Assembly: GCF_000092405.1 (NCBI RefSeq)
Contig: NC_014220.1
Location: 496,001 to 560,000 of the forward strand
DNA length: 64,000 nucleotides
Direction of reading: 5' to 3'
From: Syntrophothermus lipocalidus DSM 12680
Lineage (GTDB): Bacteria; Bacillota; Syntrophomonadia; Syntrophomonadales; Syntrophothermaceae
The notes beneath the pieces were generated by a model. It worked only from the letters and a program-made list of their open reading frames with translations. It ran no database searches and had not been told where the DNA came from. Made by a program: the position numbers and the translations under genes. Below are positions 7,891 through 60,587 of the stretch, one piece after another (position 1 is the first letter of the stretch; the number at the start of each line of letters is the position of its first letter).

Positions 7891-8013
7891 ACTCCTCCAC
7901 AGTTCCATTTTCATTCTCTAGTGGTGACTCTTTCAAGAGTCATGAGGGTCTGCGTGAATCAGCGTCCAATAAACATCAGTGCAAATCTTGGCTCATCTGC
8001 GTACATCTGTGGC
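7891..8013. repeat. Intergenic dispersed repeats: hairpin element plus TCTGCGT...ATCTGTGGC units
   Basis: Positions 7891-7954 (ACTCCTCCACAGT ... GGGTCTGCGTG) are about 80% identical to 35768-35831. The core TGACTCTTTCAAGAGTCA (7924-7941) is a near-perfect palindrome. It is followed by GGTCTGCGTGAATCAGCGTC (7947-7966) and CATCTGCGTACATCTGTGGC (7994-8013), units that recur in other gaps of this window. A further unit, TCTGCGTTAATCAGCGTC, lies at 7064-7081. No gene is present. Confidence 0.75.
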
Positions 8014-52465: not shown

Positions 52466-52912
52466 ATGAAGCTCAAGAATTACGTTAGACTGGAGTTTTG
52501 GAGTTTGCCCGAAAACGTGGCTTGGGCCCGTACCTGCGCCGCTGCCCTGGTAGCTCAACTAGATTGCACCTTGGAAGAGCTGGAGGAAGTAAAGCTGGTG
52601 GTGTCCGAGGCGGTTACAAACTGCATCATTCACGGTTACGAAAATCAAAGAGATGGGAGAATTGTTGTCGAACTTGCTCTATACGAGGAACGGGTGTTGG
52701 AGGTGGCCGTGATTGACTATGGCCGGGGCATAGAGGACTTAGAAAAGGCTATGCAAGCAGGTTATTCCTCGGACCCTGAGCGGACCGGAATGGGATTTGT
52801 CTTTATGAGGTCGTTCACGGACCACCTGGAAGTCGATTCTGCTCCAGGAAAAGGAACCAAGGTAAAGATGGTAAGGGACTTTGGGCAGCGAGATAGGCAA
52901 GCCCTGGCCTGA
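52466..52912 (+). CDS. spoIIAB: Anti-sigma F factor SpoIIAB
   Basis: A 148-residue serine kinase and anti-sigma factor of the GHKL family: N-box EAVTNCIIHGYEN, G1 DYGRGIEDL and G2 TGMGF. It binds SigF or phosphorylates SpoIIAA. The ATG at 52466 matches the family start and has only GGGAAAG upstream. A much stronger GGGGAGGTG lies 24 bases upstream, out of useful range. It is 36 bases after spoIIAA. Confidence 0.94.
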   Translation: MKLKNYVRLEFWSLPENVAWARTCAAALVAQLDCTLEELEEVKLVVSEAVTNCIIHGYENQRDGRIVVELALYEERVLEVAVIDYGRGIEDLEKAMQAGYSSDPERTGMGFVFMRSFTDHLEVDSAPGKGTKVKMVRDFGQRDRQALA

Positions 52913-52923
52913 GGGGAAGAGCG

Positions 52924-53670
52924 ATGAAGAATCGCACCGAGATTGATCAAGACAGGATGGAGGCTCTCCTCAAGGCTGCACAGGCAGGAGACCGGGACGC
53001 GGAAGAAGCGGTGTTTCAGAGTAACCTGGGTTTAGTATATATGGCTTTGGAAAGGTTTAAGAACACCCCATACGACTTTGAGGATCTTTTTCAAATCGGT
53101 GCTATCGGGTTACTCAAGGCCATTGCTAGGTTCGATTTTGGTTACGGGGTAAAGTTTTCGACCTATGCTGTACCGATGATCATCGGGGAATTGAAACGCT
53201 ACCTGAGAGATGATGGGATATTGAAAGTCCAGCGGAGTATCAAAGAGATCTACTATCGGGTCAAGTCGGCCCAGGATGACTTGCGAAGAGAGTTCGGAAA
53301 AGAACCGACGATCGGCGAAATAGCAGAACGGCTGGGGCTAGAATTAAATGACGTGGTAATGGCGGTAGAAGCGTGCCAGCCCCCGACATACATATACAAC
53401 TTGTTGCCTGGAGACGAGAAAGAACAACCTCTTCCCCTGATCAGCAAGGTTAGTGACCGAGAGGGGACAGAGGACTTATTGGAAAAAGTGGCCTTGAAAG
53501 AGGCGGTTATGCGATTGGATCCCAGGGAAAGGGAGGTTATCGTTCGCCGGTTTTTCAAAGACGAAACGCAGTCGGCCATAGCCGAAGATTTGGGTATATC
53601 GCAGGTACAGGTTTCGCGGCTTGAGAAAAGAGCTCTGAAAAAACTAAGGGGTTTACTCGATTCAATTTAA
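52924..53670 (+). CDS. sigF: RNA polymerase sigma factor SigF (forespore)
   Basis: A 248-residue sigma-70 family factor with region 2 (FEDLFQIGAIGLLKAIARFDFGYGVKFSTYAVP), region 3 and region 4 with HTH (QSAIAEDLGISQVQVSRLEK). It is the first forespore-specific sigma factor. The ATG follows GAGGGGAAGAG, 11 bases after spoIIAB, so the three spoIIA genes form one operon. A weak stem (GAGGAGTT/AACTCTTC near 53706) may end transcription. Confidence 0.95.
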   Translation: MKNRTEIDQDRMEALLKAAQAGDRDAEEAVFQSNLGLVYMALERFKNTPYDFEDLFQIGAIGLLKAIARFDFGYGVKFSTYAVPMIIGELKRYLRDDGILKVQRSIKEIYYRVKSAQDDLRREFGKEPTIGEIAERLGLELNDVVMAVEACQPPTYIYNLLPGDEKEQPLPLISKVSDREGTEDLLEKVALKEAVMRLDPREREVIVRRFFKDETQSAIAEDLGISQVQVSRLEKRALKKLRGLLDSI

Positions 53671-53780
53671 TAGCCGTTCTTTATGTGTCTCTTATTTAAG
53701 TTAGCGAGGAGTTGAGTGACGGAACTCTTCGTGTTGTTTTCCTACCTAATCCCTCCCTGGTCGCACCTTCTCGGCACAAT

Positions 53781-53818
53781 TAGTGCAAATCTGCGTTAAT
53801 CTGTGTCAATCAGTGGTT
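53781..53818. repeat. Dispersed TCTGCGT/ATCTGTG repeat cluster
   Basis: TAGTGCAAATCTGCGTTAAT is followed by CTGTGTCAATCAGTGGTT, a tandem of the unit seen at 7064, 7947, 7994, 35824, 50486, 58027 and 60716. It lies just upstream of the spoVAC promoter. Confidence 0.65.
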
Positions 53819-53835
53819 TATAGCCCTTATAGCTT

Positions 53836-53865
53836 GTATAATAGCGGGTTTTTGTTCGCATAATA
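53836..53865 (+). promoter_or_regulatory. SigG/SigF-type promoter of the spoVA operon
   Basis: GTATA (53836-53840) and CATAATA (53859-53865) are exactly 18 bases apart and match the forespore consensus GHATR-N18-CATnHTA. The spoVAC start is 24 bases downstream. Forespore control of spoVA is known in Bacillus. Confidence 0.7.
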
Positions 53866-53889
53866 CCCATGTAAAGGGTGGGTGAAATC

Positions 53890-54357
53890 ATGGTTGACCA
53901 GAGTGAACAGGCCAAGGTGCAGAAAATCGACGCTTTGGAGTATGACGAGATGGTGAAGCAAATAAAGCCCAAGCCCACGGTGTTAAAAAACAGCGTGTGG
54001 GCTTTTGTGGTTGGCGGGTTAATCTGTACCATTGGGCAAGGACTGCTCGAGTTGTTCAAAGCCACCGGGCTGGACGCCCGCGAAGCTGGAGCCGCGACCT
54101 CCGTGGTGCTTATAGGGATGGGGGCCATTTTAACCGGACTCGGGGTTTACGACGAGCTGGGCAAAAGGGCCGGAGCCGGTTCTATCGTGCCTATTACAGG
54201 GTTTGCGAACAGCATAGTGGCAGCGGCCATGGAATTTAAAAGAGAAGGTTACGTGCTCGGGGTGGGGGCGAGGATGTTCCAGGTCGCCGGGCCGGTACTG
54301 GTTTATGGAATTACTACGGGTGTTCTAATAGGATTGGTAGCTTACTTGTTTAAATAG
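53890..54357 (+). CDS. spoVAC: Stage V sporulation protein AC
   Basis: A 155-residue membrane protein with about four hydrophobic segments and conserved family stretches (NSVWAFVVGGLICTIGQG; YDELGKRAGAGSIVPITGFAN). SpoVAC forms a mechanosensitive channel in the spore inner membrane for Ca-dipicolinate movement. The ATG at 53890 follows AAAGGGTGGGTGA; the frame extends four codons further. It is the first gene after the forespore promoter. Confidence 0.94.
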   Translation: MVDQSEQAKVQKIDALEYDEMVKQIKPKPTVLKNSVWAFVVGGLICTIGQGLLELFKATGLDAREAGAATSVVLIGMGAILTGLGVYDELGKRAGAGSIVPITGFANSIVAAAMEFKREGYVLGVGARMFQVAGPVLVYGITTGVLIGLVAYLFK

Positions 54358-54368
54358 AGGTGGGATGA

Positions 54369-55382
54369 ATGCCTCGGGTTTCCAAGAGAACCGGTCAGCA
54401 GAGTATTTACTTTGAAAACCCGCCCGTGATTACTAATTGGGCGAACATAGTGGGACCGATGGAGGGGCAGGGCCCGTACGGCCAGGAGTTTGACTGGGTT
54501 CTAGAAGACTACCTGTTCGGGGAACAGTCTTGGGAAAAGGCAGAGGCCAAAATGCTGCGGGAAACCGTAAAGCTGGTGGCGAGCAAGGCCAATTTGCCGT
54601 TGGGTAACATCGAGGTGTTGTTGGCAGGAGACCTTCTCAACCAGATTATTTCTGCCAACTTTGCGGCCCGGGAATTGAAGATTCCTTTTTTGGGACTGTA
54701 CGGAGCGTGTTCGACCATGGCTGAGGGGATTGCTCTGGGAGCGATGCTGATCGATGGCGGCTTTTACAGCACCTTGACGGTGGGAGTAACAAGCCACCAT
54801 CACACGGCTGAACGGCAGTTCCGTTTTCCCACCGAGCAAGGTGCTCAGCGGCTCCCCTCTTCCCAGTGGACGGTCACGGGATGCGGGTGCCTTATCATAC
54901 AAAGAGACGGTGTCGGGCCCAGGATAACGACGGCCACGGTAGGTAAGGTGATTGACCTGGGACAAAGCGACGTGAACGATATGGGAGCGGCCATGGCCCC
55001 GGCTGCGGCCGATACCATCGTCGCTCACTTTCGAGACACCGGGCGCGATCCTCGTTATTACGACCTGATTATAACCGGGGATCTGGGCAAGTACGGACTG
55101 GCTCTTATGGAATCCCTGTGCCAAAAACTAAACTGTCCGCTGGGACAACACGTAAGCGATTGTGGGGTACTCATCTATGATATCGATCAGGATGTTCACG
55201 CTGGGGGTAGCGGCTGTGGGTGCTCTGCAGTGATGTTATGCGGGCCGTTACTCAACCGGATGCAGGCCAAAGAGTTTAACCGGATATTGTTGGTCGGAAC
55301 CGGGGCTTTGATGAGTACCACCAGTTCGTTACAAGGGGAAACGATACCCTGCATTGCGCACGCGGTGGCTATCGAGAACTAA
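54369..55382 (+). CDS. spoVAD: Stage V sporulation protein AD
   Basis: A 337-residue soluble protein with a thiolase-like fold (LLAGDLLNQIISANFAAREL; LGLYGACSTMAEGIALGA; VTSHHHTAERQFRFP). Known SpoVAD binds dipicolinic acid and is needed for its uptake. It lies 12 bases after spoVAC. The length is normal. Confidence 0.95.
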   Translation: MPRVSKRTGQQSIYFENPPVITNWANIVGPMEGQGPYGQEFDWVLEDYLFGEQSWEKAEAKMLRETVKLVASKANLPLGNIEVLLAGDLLNQIISANFAARELKIPFLGLYGACSTMAEGIALGAMLIDGGFYSTLTVGVTSHHHTAERQFRFPTEQGAQRLPSSQWTVTGCGCLIIQRDGVGPRITTATVGKVIDLGQSDVNDMGAAMAPAAADTIVAHFRDTGRDPRYYDLIITGDLGKYGLALMESLCQKLNCPLGQHVSDCGVLIYDIDQDVHAGGSGCGCSAVMLCGPLLNRMQAKEFNRILLVGTGALMSTTSSLQGETIPCIAHAVAIEN

Positions 55383-55439
55383 CCCGGTTAACGACACGGA
55401 GTGAAAAAGGAGTAGACTCGTGAACCAAGGGGGTAACTC

Positions 55440-55799
55440 GTGTTGTCGTATTTCATGGCTTTCGTAATCGGAGGTGCACTTTGCCTCTTAGCTCAGTTAG
55501 TGATGGACCTGACCAAACCCGAGATTACGCCCGGGCATATTCTAGTGGGATACGTTACGATAGGCGCAATTCTCAGCGCCATAGGACTTTACCAGCCTTT
55601 GGTCAACTTAGGGGGGGCGGGAGCCACGGTTCCACTGTCAGGGTTCGGGCACCTGTTGGCTCAAGGTGCTTTGGAAGGGATGAACAAGTCAGGCATACTG
55701 GGGGCTTTTCGCGGGGGAGTCGAGGCTGCTGCTGCTGGGATCGCGGCCGCGGTTGTGTTTGGCTACGTAACAGCGGTATTGTTCACTCCCAAGGAATAA
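55440..55799 (+). CDS. spoVAE: Stage V sporulation protein AE (SpoVAEb)
   Basis: A 119-residue membrane protein with about four hydrophobic segments and family motifs (LAQLVMDLTKPEITPGHILVG-type start; GAGATVPLSGFGHLL). It is the short, hydrophobic SpoVAEb form; no SpoVAA, SpoVAB, SpoVAEa or SpoVAF is seen. A GTG start is used behind CAAGGGGG. The next gene begins 23 bases downstream, so it is likely in the same transcript. Confidence 0.9.
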   Translation: MLSYFMAFVIGGALCLLAQLVMDLTKPEITPGHILVGYVTIGAILSAIGLYQPLVNLGGAGATVPLSGFGHLLAQGALEGMNKSGILGAFRGGVEAAAAGIAAAVVFGYVTAVLFTPKE

Positions 55800-55822
55800 A
55801 AGTGGGAAGGAGGGCAGCAGCG

Positions 55823-56836
55823 GTGCAGACTGTAGGCATTCCTCGCGGTCTTTTTTACTACTACTATTATCCTCTATGGAAGACCTTTTTTTTGTCCCTG
55901 GGATTCAGGGTGGTGACTTCGCCTGCTACGAACTACCACGTTATGGATGAGGGGGTTCTGACGGCGGTGGACGAGGCTTGCCTTCCGGTTAAGGTGTACT
56001 TCGGTCACGTAAAGGAGCTTTGCCGAAAAGACGTAGACTACTTGTTTGTGCCACGTTTGGTCAGTGTTGAACCGCGCAGCTATATCTGTCCAAAGCTCAT
56101 GGGCGTACCGGACATGCTGAAGGCCCAAGTGCCGGGTTTACCCCCGCTTATAGAGCCCAAGATTGACATGTCGAAGCGAGAACGAGACCTCTTCTCGAGC
56201 ATCTATCAGGTAGGAAAACTCTTGAACTGTAAGCCAAAGCAGGTCGAAGCTGCCTACCGGGCGGGACAGGAAGAACAGAGAAGGTTTAACAGGTTGACCA
56301 GACAAGGGTACTCGTCGGATGAGGCCTTGGAAGCCTGGGAAACCGGCAATTTGGCGGGAAAAAACAGCGGTAACGTTGAAAGTGCCGGGACAGGAAAACT
56401 CAGAATAGGGGTCTTGGGACATGGGTACTCTTTGTACGATAAGGTAATCAGCTTGGATCTCTTGAATCGACTCAGGAGCATGAAGGTAGAAATCGTCACT
56501 TTAGAAATGTTGCCCGGGCAGGAAGTTGAAGCTCATGCCGCAACTTTGCCCAAGCGCATGTTTTGGACCTTGGGGCGAAAGCTCATCGGAGGAGCTTTAA
56601 AAATGGACAGTGACGAGACCATAGACGGGATAATTTACCTGGCTTGTTTCGGTTGTGGTCCGGATTCCCTGGTCGGGCAGATAATACAACGGAGGGTGAG
56701 GAAAACCCCTTTCATGCTGGTAACCGTGGACGAGCATACGGGGGAAGCAGGACTTGTAACGAGGCTGGAAGCTTTCTGCGACATGATATGGAGGAGGAAA
56801 CAAGTAAATGAAAGTCACCTTTCCCCACATGGGTAA
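55823..56836 (+). CDS. Acyl-CoA dehydratase activase-related protein (DUF2229-type), part 1 of a split system
   Basis: A 337-residue protein starting QTVGIPRGLFYYYYYPLWKTF, with conserved CLPVKVYFGHVKEL, a middle linker, and a Rossmann-like C-terminal half (IGVLGHGYSLYDKVISLDLLNRL; YLACFGCGPDSLVGQII). This matches the DUF2229 region of large 2-hydroxyacyl-CoA dehydratase activase-related proteins. The GTG at 55823 follows AAGGAGGG; a longer open frame to 55481 is only a shadow of spoVAE. It is 23 bases after spoVAE and overlaps the next gene by 29 bases. The substrate is unknown. Confidence 0.8.
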   Translation: MQTVGIPRGLFYYYYYPLWKTFFLSLGFRVVTSPATNYHVMDEGVLTAVDEACLPVKVYFGHVKELCRKDVDYLFVPRLVSVEPRSYICPKLMGVPDMLKAQVPGLPPLIEPKIDMSKRERDLFSSIYQVGKLLNCKPKQVEAAYRAGQEEQRRFNRLTRQGYSSDEALEAWETGNLAGKNSGNVESAGTGKLRIGVLGHGYSLYDKVISLDLLNRLRSMKVEIVTLEMLPGQEVEAHAATLPKRMFWTLGRKLIGGALKMDSDETIDGIIYLACFGCGPDSLVGQIIQRRVRKTPFMLVTVDEHTGEAGLVTRLEAFCDMIWRRKQVNESHLSPHG

Positions 56837-57911
56837 TCTTTGGATCTCGGTTAAATCTCTCTTCGAGGGATTGAATCTTGAAGTGGTAGTGCCTCCTCCT
56901 TGTTCGGCCCGGACAATGGAACTGGGAGTGCGGCATTCACCCGAATTTGCCTGTTTGCCGTTGAAGATCAACATGGGAAATTTTATCGAGGCTCTGGAAA
57001 ACGGGGCTGATACCATTGTTATGGCCGGTGGCTGGGGCCCCTGTCGTTTTGGGTACTATGCTCAGGTGGAAAAGGACATTCTTGTAGACCTTGGCTTTAA
57101 GTTTAGGCTGATCGTCTTGGAAGCTCCCGATTCCAGGCTGCAAGACCTGATTAAACAGTTAAAGCTTTTGGGCCAAAACGTATCCTTTTTCAAGGTTGTA
57201 CAGGCCATACGTCTTGGCTGGGAAAAACTGAAAGCAGTTGATGAGTTGGAATCAAAGCTTAGGTACTATTTGCCGCGCGTTTTAGATCCAGACCGGGCTG
57301 AAAAGGTATTTGCAGAAGGGCTAAAAAAGGTAGACAGAGCCAACACTTCGATGGAAATCAGAGAAGCAGTGTTGGCTACGTCAGATGAACTGGGCGGATT
57401 ACCTCAGAACGGGTGTACTCCACTCAGGATCGGGTTGGTAGGTGAAATATACACTCTCCTAGAACCGGCTAGCAACCTGCGGGTAGAAAGAAGACTGGGA
57501 AGATTGGGAGCAGAAGTGAAGAAAACAGTATCACTTCCCCAGTGGGTCAACGATCATCTTTTGGGTGGGGTGCTTAAGGTAGGAAGTTGTAGGGAAGCGG
57601 TTGCTTGCTCCAGCCCGTACCTTAATGACTGGGTGGGAGGGCACGGGAGAGAGACAGTGGGATACACGGTTCAGCTGGCCCGGCAAGGTTTTGACGGGGT
57701 GGTACAGGTGGGGCCTCTAACCTGCATGCCCGAGATCGTAGCCCAATCCGTCTTGGGTAAGGTGAGCCAGGTGGAAGGTATACCGGTGATGACCATGTAC
57801 TTCGACGAACAGTCGGCAGAGGCCGGGGTACAGACCCGGCTGGAGGCGTTTATCGATATGGTGCGACATAGGAAGCGGATGAACAACGGTAGCCTTTTCT
57901 CCTGCACTTGA
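56808..57911 (+). CDS. Acyl-CoA dehydratase activase-related protein, part 2 of a split system
   Basis: A 367-residue protein starting KVTFPHMGNLWISVKSLFEGL, then SPEFACLPLKINMGNF, GGWGPCRFGYYAQV, RIGLVGEIYTLLEPASN and VQVGPLTCMPEIVAQSVL. Together these correspond to the C-terminal CoA-dehydratase-like part of long fused activase proteins. Conserved cysteines (CLPLK, GPCRFGYY, PLTCMPE) could hold an iron-sulphur cluster, as in HgdB-like proteins. The ATG follows GGAGGAAACAAG inside the end of the preceding gene, so the two are coupled. The reaction is unknown. Confidence 0.8.
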   Translation: MKVTFPHMGNLWISVKSLFEGLNLEVVVPPPCSARTMELGVRHSPEFACLPLKINMGNFIEALENGADTIVMAGGWGPCRFGYYAQVEKDILVDLGFKFRLIVLEAPDSRLQDLIKQLKLLGQNVSFFKVVQAIRLGWEKLKAVDELESKLRYYLPRVLDPDRAEKVFAEGLKKVDRANTSMEIREAVLATSDELGGLPQNGCTPLRIGLVGEIYTLLEPASNLRVERRLGRLGAEVKKTVSLPQWVNDHLLGGVLKVGSCREAVACSSPYLNDWVGGHGRETVGYTVQLARQGFDGVVQVGPLTCMPEIVAQSVLGKVSQVEGIPVMTMYFDEQSAEAGVQTRLEAFIDMVRHRKRMNNGSLFSCT

Positions 57912-58026
57912 TTGAGGAGACGGGTTTTGGCAAGGCAATCAAGGTCTACTAATAGAACTCAAATAGTACTCCGCTTCATAGCGGTTCCTGTATTGTTCTG
58001 ATAATAATCGGTGTTTTTCAGTGGCT

Positions 58027-58046
58027 GTCTGCGTTCATCTGTGGCT
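58027..58046. repeat. TCTGCGTTCATCTGTGGCT unit of the dispersed repeat
   Basis: GTCTGCGTTCATCTGTGGCT lies in the 57912-58120 gap before the activase gene. Further units at 7064, 50486 and 60716 have the same layout. No other feature was recognised in this gap. Confidence 0.65.
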
Positions 58047-58120
58047 GGCAGAAGAACGACGTGGTGGGCGAAAGATGCGGTATGTGAGAGGAGAGGGGGA
58101 GGCAATACGGGGTGATATAA

Positions 58121-59104
58121 TTGGAACTCTATTTGGGCGTAGATATCGGTTCGGTAAGCAGCAATTTTGTTTTATCTAATGGTCAAGGCGAGGTACTGGC
58201 TTCTGTTTACCTTCGGACCATGGGCAACCCCGTGCAGGCTGTTAGAGACGGGTTGGCCAGGTTGGCAAAAGAGTTTCCCGGTACGCCTGTTAAGGGGGTG
58301 GGGACCACTGGCAGCGGGAGGCAACTGGCAGCTACGATGCTGGGGGCTGATGTGGTAAAGAATGAAATCACCTGTCATGCTATAGCCGCGTACCAGTACA
58401 ATCCGGAGGTTCGCACCGTTATAGAAATCGGGGGCCAGGACTCGAAGATAATCATTATCCGGGACGGAATAGTAGTTGACTTTGCCATGAACACCGTCTG
58501 TGCGGCGGGGACCGGTTCGTTCCTTGACCAGCAGGCAGCGAGGCTGAACATTCCTATTCAGGAATTCGGACAGAAAGCCCTAGCTGCCCGCCAGTCAGCT
58601 CGGATTGCCGGCCGTTGCGGGGTTTTTGCCGAATCTGATATGATACACAAGCAGCAGATGGGTTATCCGGTCGAAGACATCATAGCCGGCTTGTGCGAAG
58701 CTTTAGCCCGGAACTTCCTCAACAACGTAGGAAAAGGTAAGGATATCCAGGAACCGGTGATGTTTCAAGGGGGAGTAGCGGCCAACGTAGGACTGAAGCA
58801 AGCGTTCGAGAAGCTTCTGGGAAAACCGGTCATTGTACCGCAGTACCATAGTGTTATGGGGGCAGTAGGTGCCGCGCTATTGGCCCGGGAGACAGTAGCG
58901 GAAAAGGGCCGGCCCACGAACTTTAAGGGCATGGATTACGTTTTAGACGGCCATTTCACGACTCGAAGTTTCGAGTGTCAGGGATGCCCTAACCTTTGTG
59001 AGGTGGTCAGCATCAAGCGGGGAGGGGAAGTCCTGGCTTACTGGGGAGACCGCTGTCGAAGGTGGGAGACTTCTCTCTCGTCAGATTGCCGGGCACTAGC
59101 TTGA
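58121..59104 (+). CDS. CoA-substrate-specific enzyme activase (BcrAD/BadFG ATPase family)
   Basis: A 327-residue ASKHA-fold ATPase: LGVDIGSVSSNFVL (5-18), VIEIGGQDSKII (100-111), and the cysteines that bridge a [4Fe-4S] cluster between two subunits, Cys127 (NTVCAAGTG) and Cys166 (GRCGVFAESDMI). A short C-terminal Cys-rich part (CQGCPNLC) is as in standalone activases. It drives ATP-dependent electron transfer to a dehydratase-like partner, here probably the two upstream proteins. The TTG start follows GGGGTGA. It lies 209 bases after part 2, with a dispersed repeat in the gap. Confidence 0.88.
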   Translation: MELYLGVDIGSVSSNFVLSNGQGEVLASVYLRTMGNPVQAVRDGLARLAKEFPGTPVKGVGTTGSGRQLAATMLGADVVKNEITCHAIAAYQYNPEVRTVIEIGGQDSKIIIIRDGIVVDFAMNTVCAAGTGSFLDQQAARLNIPIQEFGQKALAARQSARIAGRCGVFAESDMIHKQQMGYPVEDIIAGLCEALARNFLNNVGKGKDIQEPVMFQGGVAANVGLKQAFEKLLGKPVIVPQYHSVMGAVGAALLARETVAEKGRPTNFKGMDYVLDGHFTTRSFECQGCPNLCEVVSIKRGGEVLAYWGDRCRRWETSLSSDCRALA

Positions 59105-59140
59105 TTCTGGCTGGCAAAACCCGATGACCCAAATTACTCG

Positions 59141-59169
59141 TTGTCTGGCTTATGATGGTCTGGTAAAAT
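59141..59169 (+). promoter_or_regulatory. Sigma-A promoter of trpB2
   Basis: TTGTCT (59141-59146) and TAAAAT (59164-59169) are 17 bases apart, about 57 bases before the trpB2 start. Confidence 0.6.
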
Positions 59170-59225
59170 ATCAACATGATTTCAATACGTAACAGCGACA
59201 GCTGAGGAGAGGAGAGATTAATGAG

Positions 59226-60587
59226 ATGAGTAGAGACGCCCTTACTAAGATTATCCTTCCGGAGGACAAGATTCCCAAGTATTGGTACAACGTGCAGGCT
59301 GACATGCCTAACCCGCTGGATCCGCCTTTGAATCCGCGCACTGGGGAGCCTGCGACTCCTGATGATCTATTGCCGATTTTTCCAATGGGTCTCATCGAAC
59401 AGGAGGTTTCTCAGGAGCGGTACATCGAGATTCCCCAGGAAGTTAGGGAAATTTATCGGCTGTGGAGACCGAGCCCTCTTTATAGAGCCCACAGGTTAGA
59501 AAAAGCCCTCGATACTCCCTGCCGAATCTACTATAAGTATGAGGGTGTCAGCCCGGTCGGCAGTCACAAGCTCAACAGCGCTATCGCACAAGCGTTCTTT
59601 AACAAGATCGCTGGGATCAAGCGCCTTACGACGGAGACGGGAGCTGGGCAGTGGGGAACAGCGTTAGCGTTAGCCTGTCGGGTCTTCGGGCTGGATTGTA
59701 CGGTGTACATGGTTAAGGTCAGTTATGAACAGAAACCCTACCGTCGCTCTATAATGGAAACCTACGGAGCGACTTGTCTAGCCAGCCCTACCGACCGAAC
59801 CGCATCCGGAAGGGCTGTGCTGGAGAGAGATCCCGATACCCCAGGTACCTTGGCCATAGCTATAAGCGAGGCGGTGGAAGATGCAGCCAGCCGGGACGAT
59901 ACCAACTACTCCCTGGGCAGCGTTTTGAACCACGTTTGCCTGCACCAGACGGTCATCGGGCAGGAAGTCAAGCTCCAGCTGGAAATGGTGGATGAGTATC
60001 CTGACGTGGTGATAGGGTGCTGCGGGGGGGGCAGCAACTTTTCGGGCATTGCTTTGCCCTTCATACCGGACAAACTTGCAGGAACCAATGTCCGCCTCAT
60101 CGCTGTGGAACCGGCAGCTTGTCCAACCCTGACCAAAGGGGTGTTTGCGTATGACTACGGGGACCAGGCCGGGTTTACCCCTTTGCTGAAGATGTATACC
60201 CTGGGCCACGATTTTACTCCGCCCGGTATCCATGCGGGGGGCTTGCGGTACCACGGGGATTCTCCGCTTATAAGCCGACTTTATCATGACGGGCTACTGG
60301 AAGCGAGGGCGGTATTCCAGAAGAATGTGTTCGAAGCGGCGGTGTTGTTTGCCCAAACCGAAGGCATTCTTCCTGCTCCCGAGTCGGCTCACGCCATAAG
60401 AGCGGCAGTCGACGAAGCCTTGGCTGGCAAAGAAGAGGGGGTCAGCCGCTGTATCGTTTTCAATTTAAGCGGGCACGGCCACCTCGATATCTCCGCCTAC
60501 GACAGTTACTTGAATGGCAGAATAGAAGACGTGGAGTTTTCGGACGAAGCACTGGCAGAGAGCCTGAAGACTCTGCCCCAGGTCTAG
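59226..60587 (+). CDS. trpB2: Tryptophan synthase beta-like protein (TrpB2)
   Basis: A 453-residue PLP enzyme. The length and N-terminal extension ([27 protein letters not shown]) are those of the TrpB2 family, not standard TrpB. The PLP lysine is Lys115 in VGSHKLNSA, and the phosphate loop is [10 protein letters not shown]. It can condense serine with indole. No trpA or other trp gene is nearby, so it may salvage indole. It has its own promoter and a terminator behind it. Confidence 0.93.

Follow-up and report, generated by a model that had tools for sequence, protein, structure and literature searches.

Radical enzymes of the benzoyl-coenzyme A (CoA) reductase (BCR)/2-hydroxyacyl-CoA dehydratase (HAD) superfamily belong to a class known for some of biology's lowest-potential electron transfers. 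In the class I benzoyl-CoA reductase BzdNO, the active [4Fe-4S] cluster of BzdO is liganded by Cys95, Cys128, Cys380 and a water or hydroxide, and BzdN holds a double cubane on six cysteines (PMC11971306). Few spore loci have been studied as thoroughly as the spoVA operon, mostly in Bacillus. Its order in Bacillus subtilis runs from sigF to spoVAEB, spoVAEA, spoVAF and lysA. Here we describe a window of 64,000 nucleotides, the whole stretch analysed, which covers bases 496,001–560,000 of the Syntrophothermus lipocalidus chromosome (contig NC_014220.1) and in which spoVAC, spoVAD and spoVAE are followed by the genes of two DUF2229 proteins, D1 and D2, and of an HgdC/BcrAD-type ATPase. We propose, with a probability of roughly 70%, that this D1-D2-ATPase trio is an oxygen-sensitive, ATP-driven electron pump coupled to a BCR/HAD-type reductase and expressed in the forespore as part of the sigma-G-dependent spoVA transcript.

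Fold and cluster ligands of the trio

An hhalign comparison shows that D1 and D2 are homologues (E 1e-35), and both scored above the curated cut-off of 29.4 bits for the Pfam family DUF2229 (PF09989; Table 1). Against HgdB/HGD-D (PF06050) they reached 20.1 and 26.9 bits, respectively, under the cut-off of 28.4, so that both fall outside HGD-D despite the shared fold. AlphaFold2 models built from alignments of 57 rows each (A2 and A3, restricted to rows with complete ends and no internal stop) had predicted local distance difference test scores of 92.2 for D1 and 90.4 for D2. The best full-length matches of these models were the main chains of the double-cubane cluster protein (DCCP), HadBC, BzdNO and MbdON, with VIA-align Z scores of 14.3–16.1 (D1) and 14.3–15.6 (D2); HadBC and BzdNO scored lower with their second subunit chains (11.7–13.2), and unrelated partial structure matches did not exceed 10. 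The best Foldseek E-values were 3e-9 for D1 and 9e-11 for D2. As modelled, D1 and D2 share the catalytic-subunit fold of the BCR/HAD radical enzyme superfamily. The term 'split activase', under which the original prediction had placed the two proteins, is thus misleading, since both resemble catalytic dehydratase/reductase subunits and not an activase.

Three cysteines are invariant in each 57-row alignment, window included: Cys53, Cys89 and Cys278 in D1, and Cys49, Cys79 and Cys306 in D2. Three per subunit, as in BzdO, versus six in BzdN, favours two simple [4Fe-4S] sites in D1-D2. We rejected the identification of D1-D2 as a double-cubane enzyme on the same grounds, only three and not six cysteines being invariant in each protein. 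When D1 and D2 were aligned by hhalign with a DCCP-like protein of the same genome, only the C-terminal part was aligned and the first two cysteines were unmatched residue by residue.

The nearest relatives of the ATPase in the PDB are MbdQ, HadI, HgdC and the DCCP reductase (DCCP-R). It has the two cysteines per chain that a bridging cluster takes in BCR/HAD activators, Cys127 and Cys166, aligned with those of MbdQ and HadI and kept in 103/103 ATPases; a C-terminal CxxCxxxC...C motif (Cys 286, 289, 293 and 312) is kept in 99–100 of the same 103. None of the three genes is disrupted, and all show purifying selection, with nonsynonymous divergence (pN) of 0.14–0.22 and synonymous divergence (pS) of 0.73–0.80, the latter near saturation, in the comparison with a relative (L074). 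At the sequence level, the parts correspond to an ATP-driven low-potential Fe-S reductase, as had been suggested, and this biochemical class is well supported for the trio.

We infer the cluster content, the electron flow and the forespore timing as follows. The ATPase dimer would hold one [4Fe-4S] cluster bridged by Cys127 and Cys166 of each chain, and ATP hydrolysis would drive electrons one at a time from ferredoxin to the D1-D2 heterodimer. In D1 and in D2, three cysteines would ligate a [4Fe-4S] cluster that keeps an open site, and the D1-D2 cluster would reduce a substrate while the spore develops or germinates.

Position of the trio in the spoVA cluster

On the forward strand, a D-Ala-D-Ala carboxypeptidase gene (at the position of dacF), a spoIIAA-like open reading frame (ORF), spoIIAB and sigF precede spoVAC; spoVAD, spoVAE, D1, D2, the ATPase gene, a TrpB-like gene and lysA follow in that order. 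Every part of the predicted cluster was confirmed at its place (Table 1).

Table 1. Features of the spoVA-trio locus and of loci compared with it (positions in the window unless a locus is given)
Feature	Position	Strand	Evidence or remark
Sigma-G-type promoter TGTATA-18-CATAATA, ahead of spoVAC	53835-53865	+	10/10 scored positions
spoVAC	53878-54357	+	TIGR02838 188 bits (cut-off 164), PF03862
spoVAD	54369-55382	+	TIGR02845 455 bits, PF07451
spoVAE (SpoVAEB type)	55440-55799	+	TIGR02839 141 bits (cut-off 131)
D1, DUF2229 protein, predicted HadB/BzdO-like catalytic subunit	55823-56836	+	PF09989 188.4 bits
D2, partner subunit	56808-57911	+	PF09989 41.2 bits
HgdC/BcrAD-type ATPase	58121-59104	+	TIGR00241 195 bits (cut-off 125)
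spoIIAB, upstream context	52466-52912	+	TIGR01925 178 bits
sigF, upstream context	52924-53670	+	best models SigF/SigG type; order kept in relatives
TrpB-like pyridoxal phosphate enzyme, downstream context	59226-60587	+	NF009057 744 bits
Second D1-D2-ATPase trio (group B)	L001:7623-10697		same genome
Spore photoproduct lyase genes	L168:9890-10969 and L169:5073-6101		divergent from trio, family f40

The promoter ahead of spoVAC had been called a good forespore promoter, and by sequence it is a perfect one: TGNATA-N18-CATNNTA has a single match in the 64 kb window, where 0.03 would be expected. Scored against the sigma-G consensus, 17 of 59 regions 5' of spoVAC (29%; window included) reached 9–10 of 10 positions versus 2% of shuffles, and near-matches recur at the equivalent place in Syntrophomonas-type relatives. 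Promoter-like and terminator-like sites within 53600–59400 were not above chance level. The trio has two attributes of the forespore (spoVA) regulon, a sigma-G-type promoter opening the cluster and a conserved same-strand position 3' of the spoVA genes, and this position would fit expression in the forespore.

D1 starts with GTG, preceded by an AGGAGG-like site, 23 bp past spoVAE as predicted; this spacing is of secondary importance, because spoVAF and/or spoVAEA intervenes in most linked relatives and a direct spoVAE-D1 junction is the minority arrangement. The predicted coupling of the DUF2229 pair also stands: the start of D2 falls inside the end of D1, with an overlap of 29 nt, and the two genes overlap in 105 of 125 unique loci. 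The ATPase gene does come after D1-D2, although here a gap of 209 bp separates it from D2; in 89 of 100 related loci this gap does not exceed 60 bp. The dispersed repeat TCTGCGTTMATCTGTG has 39 copies in the genome at one mismatch or less (control sequence: 1), of which three are in the window, one inside the long D2-ATPase gap (58028-58043), one just 5' of the spoVAC promoter (53790-53805) and one at 7996-8011. An alternative start of spoVAC is the ATG at 53890. The TrpB-like gene is found within 4.5 kb past D2 in 21 of 69 testable loci.

Linkage was surveyed in a phylum sample of 398 genomes with a D1 threshold of E<=1e-20, which yielded 149 listed and typed D1 rows (278 positive genomes; one second-copy row, G431:C80, was excluded from typing) and 150 listed spoVAD rows (337 positive genomes). 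Among the matches listed, D1 lies on the same strand 0.4–4.6 kb 3' of spoVAD in 76 of the 102 genomes having both, in 29 families; in many of the remaining 26, D1 and spoVAD are on different contigs. On account of this breadth, a chance neighbourhood of the trio and spoVA was rejected. In a named collection of 80 loci, 58 were linked to spoVA/sigF genes, including those of Moorella, Desulfotomaculum, Pelotomaculum, Desulforadius and Syntrophomonas; 17 were unlinked and 5 too short to judge. The nearest 5' spore gene in 93 linked loci was spoVAF in 54, spoVAE in 23, spoVAEA in 15 and sigF/spoIIAB only in 1 (these 93 among 125 unique loci give no frequency, as some linked and unlinked regions were chosen by hand). 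The commonest order is sigF, spoVAC-VAD-VAE-(VAEA)-(VAF)-D1-D2-ATPase, in which spoVAEA is a PF14097 match (206 bits) and spoVAF a match to the GerA family PF03323 (542 bits).

S. lipocalidus, as far as its sequence tells, has lost spoVAEA and spoVAF yet retained the trio: no PF14097 match was found anywhere in the genome, and its best spoVAF-like matches are 31–33% identical versus 52–79% for spoVAF in most linked loci. The reverse loss is seen in Desulforadius, Desulfoscipio and Sporotomaculum (L121, L148 and L145), where the order is sigF-spoVAEA-spoVAF-D1-D2-ATPase and the locus has no spoVAC-D-E; the trio persists through both kinds of loss. These loci bear on the idea that the trio, in connection with the dipicolinate channel, carries out a redox reaction on dipicolinate or a compound derived from it (a Birch-type ring reduction or the reverse). 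The trio adjoins the channel genes and its close relatives BzdNO reduce an aromatic ring, but L110, L121, L145 and L148 keep it with spoVAEA-spoVAF only, away from spoVAC-D-E, and its neighbourhood showed no gene for a CoA ligase or for dipicolinate modification. We consider this reading very improbable.

In family f40 (two loci read, L168 and L169), a relocated trio is divergent from a gene for the radical S-adenosylmethionine (SAM) enzyme spore photoproduct lyase, a hint that relocated copies can remain beside spore genes; other relocated copies adjoin transport, amylase and phospholipase-like genes rather than spore genes. This arrangement, together with the relatedness of the ATPase to the methanogenesis marker 15 model (131 bits, under the cut-off of 456), would suit a maturation or repair factor whose low-potential electrons activate another spore metalloenzyme (radical SAM, Fe-S or corrinoid) and not a metabolite. 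Against this factor, the lyase neighbour is confined to f40 among the loci examined, and spore photoproduct lyase functions also in Bacilli that have no trio. With L168 and L169 as the only cases, the idea that the trio is generally tied to this lyase was rejected. The maturation factor shares class and place with the electron pump reading, of which it is a sub-case; with this target we regard it as possible but doubtful.

Paralogs and distribution of the trio

The same genome carries a second, diverged trio (group B), whose ATPase, D1 and D2 are 66%, 42% and 41% identical to those of the window and whose neighbours, from ORFs read by eye, are selA/selB-like genes and a branched-chain amino-acid-type ABC transporter. 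A fused form of about 1,450 aa has the domains ATPase-ATPase-D1-D2 in one frame. It had been taken for the intact form of the trio, and proves to be a distant relative with two ATPase domains. G002, a genome of the window's family, has no spoVAD match and retains group B and a fused form. In a D1+D2 tree of 123 loci, rooted on group B (L001, L050, L186; 2 of the 125 unique loci were dropped by length), linked loci are spread over everything outside group B and unlinked loci fall in several separate groups, the pattern expected of an old linkage with several later losses.

A separate dehydratase-type cluster of S. lipocalidus (L002; ORFs read without a family search) has an HgdC-like ATPase, two HgdB-like subunits and a CoA-transferase-like ORF; for this reason, the trio was rejected as the fermentation dehydratase of the species. 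More generally, a vegetative enzyme, such as a fermentation acyl-CoA dehydratase or reductase, might happen to sit behind spoVA. The superfamily is mostly metabolic, unlinked copies occur (those of the named collection), and the diverged trio lies beside other genes; such an enzyme is nevertheless unlikely in view of the linkage across families and most of the tree, the L002 cluster and the chance level of promoter-like sites within the operon. As substrate of the proposed forespore reductase, a small molecule of the spore core or a metalloenzyme of anaerobes is favoured over a fermentation intermediate.

Two other gene pairs of the genome were noted. A DCCP-like protein of 424 aa adjoins an HgdC-type ATPase (L003:5093-7286, genome 275 kb; from the ORF list, without a family search), and this pair is possibly a double-cubane system, judging from its genes. 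A small HgdB-like/ATPase pair (L004:5545-7339, genome 2.09 Mb) is near glutamate-racemase-like and fumarase-like genes.

Equal presence in non-sporulating lineages, which would have spoken against a spore role, was not found. In the phylum sample, D1 matched in 266 of 337 spoVAD-positive versus 12 of 61 spoVAD-negative genomes (Fisher test ignoring kinship; presence and absence were read by eye from listings, in which 60 of the 61 spoVAD-negative genomes were identifiable). Only one of these 12 is clearly of the spoVA-associated type, group A (G312, 63% complete), and one is borderline (G293, 282 vs 248 bits); the others score as B, as fused, or about equidistant from both. In a set of 61 genomes of a single order, S. 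lipocalidus and 60 relatives, D1-type matches were found in 60 and spoVAD in 56, and group A was present in 52 of 56 spoVAD-positive versus 1 of 5 spoVAD-negative genomes (tables likewise read by eye; Fisher p 6e-4, ignoring kinship). The B. subtilis control genome gave no DUF2229 match. The trio tracks the spore formers of the phylum but is not required by all.

Several observations weigh against a forespore reductase. First, about 71 of the 337 spoVAD-positive genomes lack a D1 match at 1e-20, so that the trio is not universally needed for spores, and 4 of the 56 spoVAD-positive genomes of the order lack the spoVA type. Second, spoVAD presence and kinship are confounded. Third, the trio lies away from spoVA in Thermoanaerobacter/Thermoanaerobacterium, in the Alkaliphilus group and in family f74, and support for the deepest nodes of the D1+D2 tree is weak (0.31–0.83 near the base). 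Fourth, PMC3533761 (Table 5) places S. lipocalidus among the Spo0A-positive non-spore-formers, without spoVG, sleB and cwlJ; a sporulating relative is therefore the proper experimental subject. The SigF of this recorded non-spore-former (52924-53670) scored 284 bits against TIGR02885, under the NCBIfam cut-off of 321.

In conclusion, the original prediction holds for the conserved linkage, the promoter, the coupling and the reductase parts, and fails for the activase name and the identity of the fused form, in a species listed as a non-spore-former. We tentatively extend the reading, at somewhat less than even odds, to anaerobic spore formers at large: these would have a dedicated, ATP-driven Fe-S reductase of very low potential, ancestral in the sigF/spoVA cluster, performing radical or Birch-type chemistry in the forespore or spore core for a step of maturation, dormancy or revival that has no counterpart in B. 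subtilis. No paper on the link of the trio to spoVA was found by broad co-occurrence searches of open-access full text, which is weak evidence of absence, and the main text of a 2012 survey of sporulation genes (PMC3533761) has no 'dehydratase', 'activase' or 'COG1924'. A conserved trio in the spoVA cluster of anaerobes points to an overlooked redox requirement of their spores, and the linkage suggests an unrecognised redox step in spore making or waking. DUF2229 proteins gain a testable physiological setting, and trio mutants in tractable anaerobes would be directly informative on dipicolinate handling, dormancy and germination.

Comparison with known systems

The ATPase is homologous to HadI (4eht) and HgdC (1hux) over about 255 residues, including both cluster cysteines, and differs from them by its extra four-cysteine C-terminal part. 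D1 and D2 share with HadBC (3o3m) the subunit fold (Z 12–16) and three conserved cysteines per subunit; they differ in being only about 12–16% identical and in belonging to DUF2229, and the trio is in a spore operon whereas HadBC acts in amino-acid fermentation. With the class I benzoyl-CoA reductases BzdNO/PQ and MbdONPQ (8s02, 9gai), the trio has in common a two-subunit catalytic part plus ATPase and, with BzdO, a predicted cluster of the three-cysteine type. It differs in that D1 and D2 keep only three invariant cysteines each, compared with the six of the BzdN double cubane, and in having one ATPase gene where the Bzd and Mbd systems have two.

DCCP (6eno, 7yyl) is the best or near-best fold match of D1 and D2, and by analogy with DCCP/DCCP-R the trio may carry out an ATP-driven reduction of a small molecule. 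The double cubane of DCCP is, however, held by six cysteines in one chain, whereas D1 and D2 are two different subunits devoid of the extra cysteines. The fused activase-related DUF2229 proteins have the same domains, ATPase then D1 and D2, but form an ATPase-ATPase-D1-D2 chain that is mostly 22–37% identical by domain (the exception is L203, with about 50% identity in the ATPase) and is present also in spoVAD-negative genomes. The S. lipocalidus genome, a single chromosome of 2,405,559 bp in strain TGB-C1 (PMC3035303), shares with B. subtilis the gene frame of the spoVA operon, with lysA still 3'. B. subtilis differs in giving no DUF2229 match, and in anaerobes the trio occupies the slot between spoVAF and lysA.

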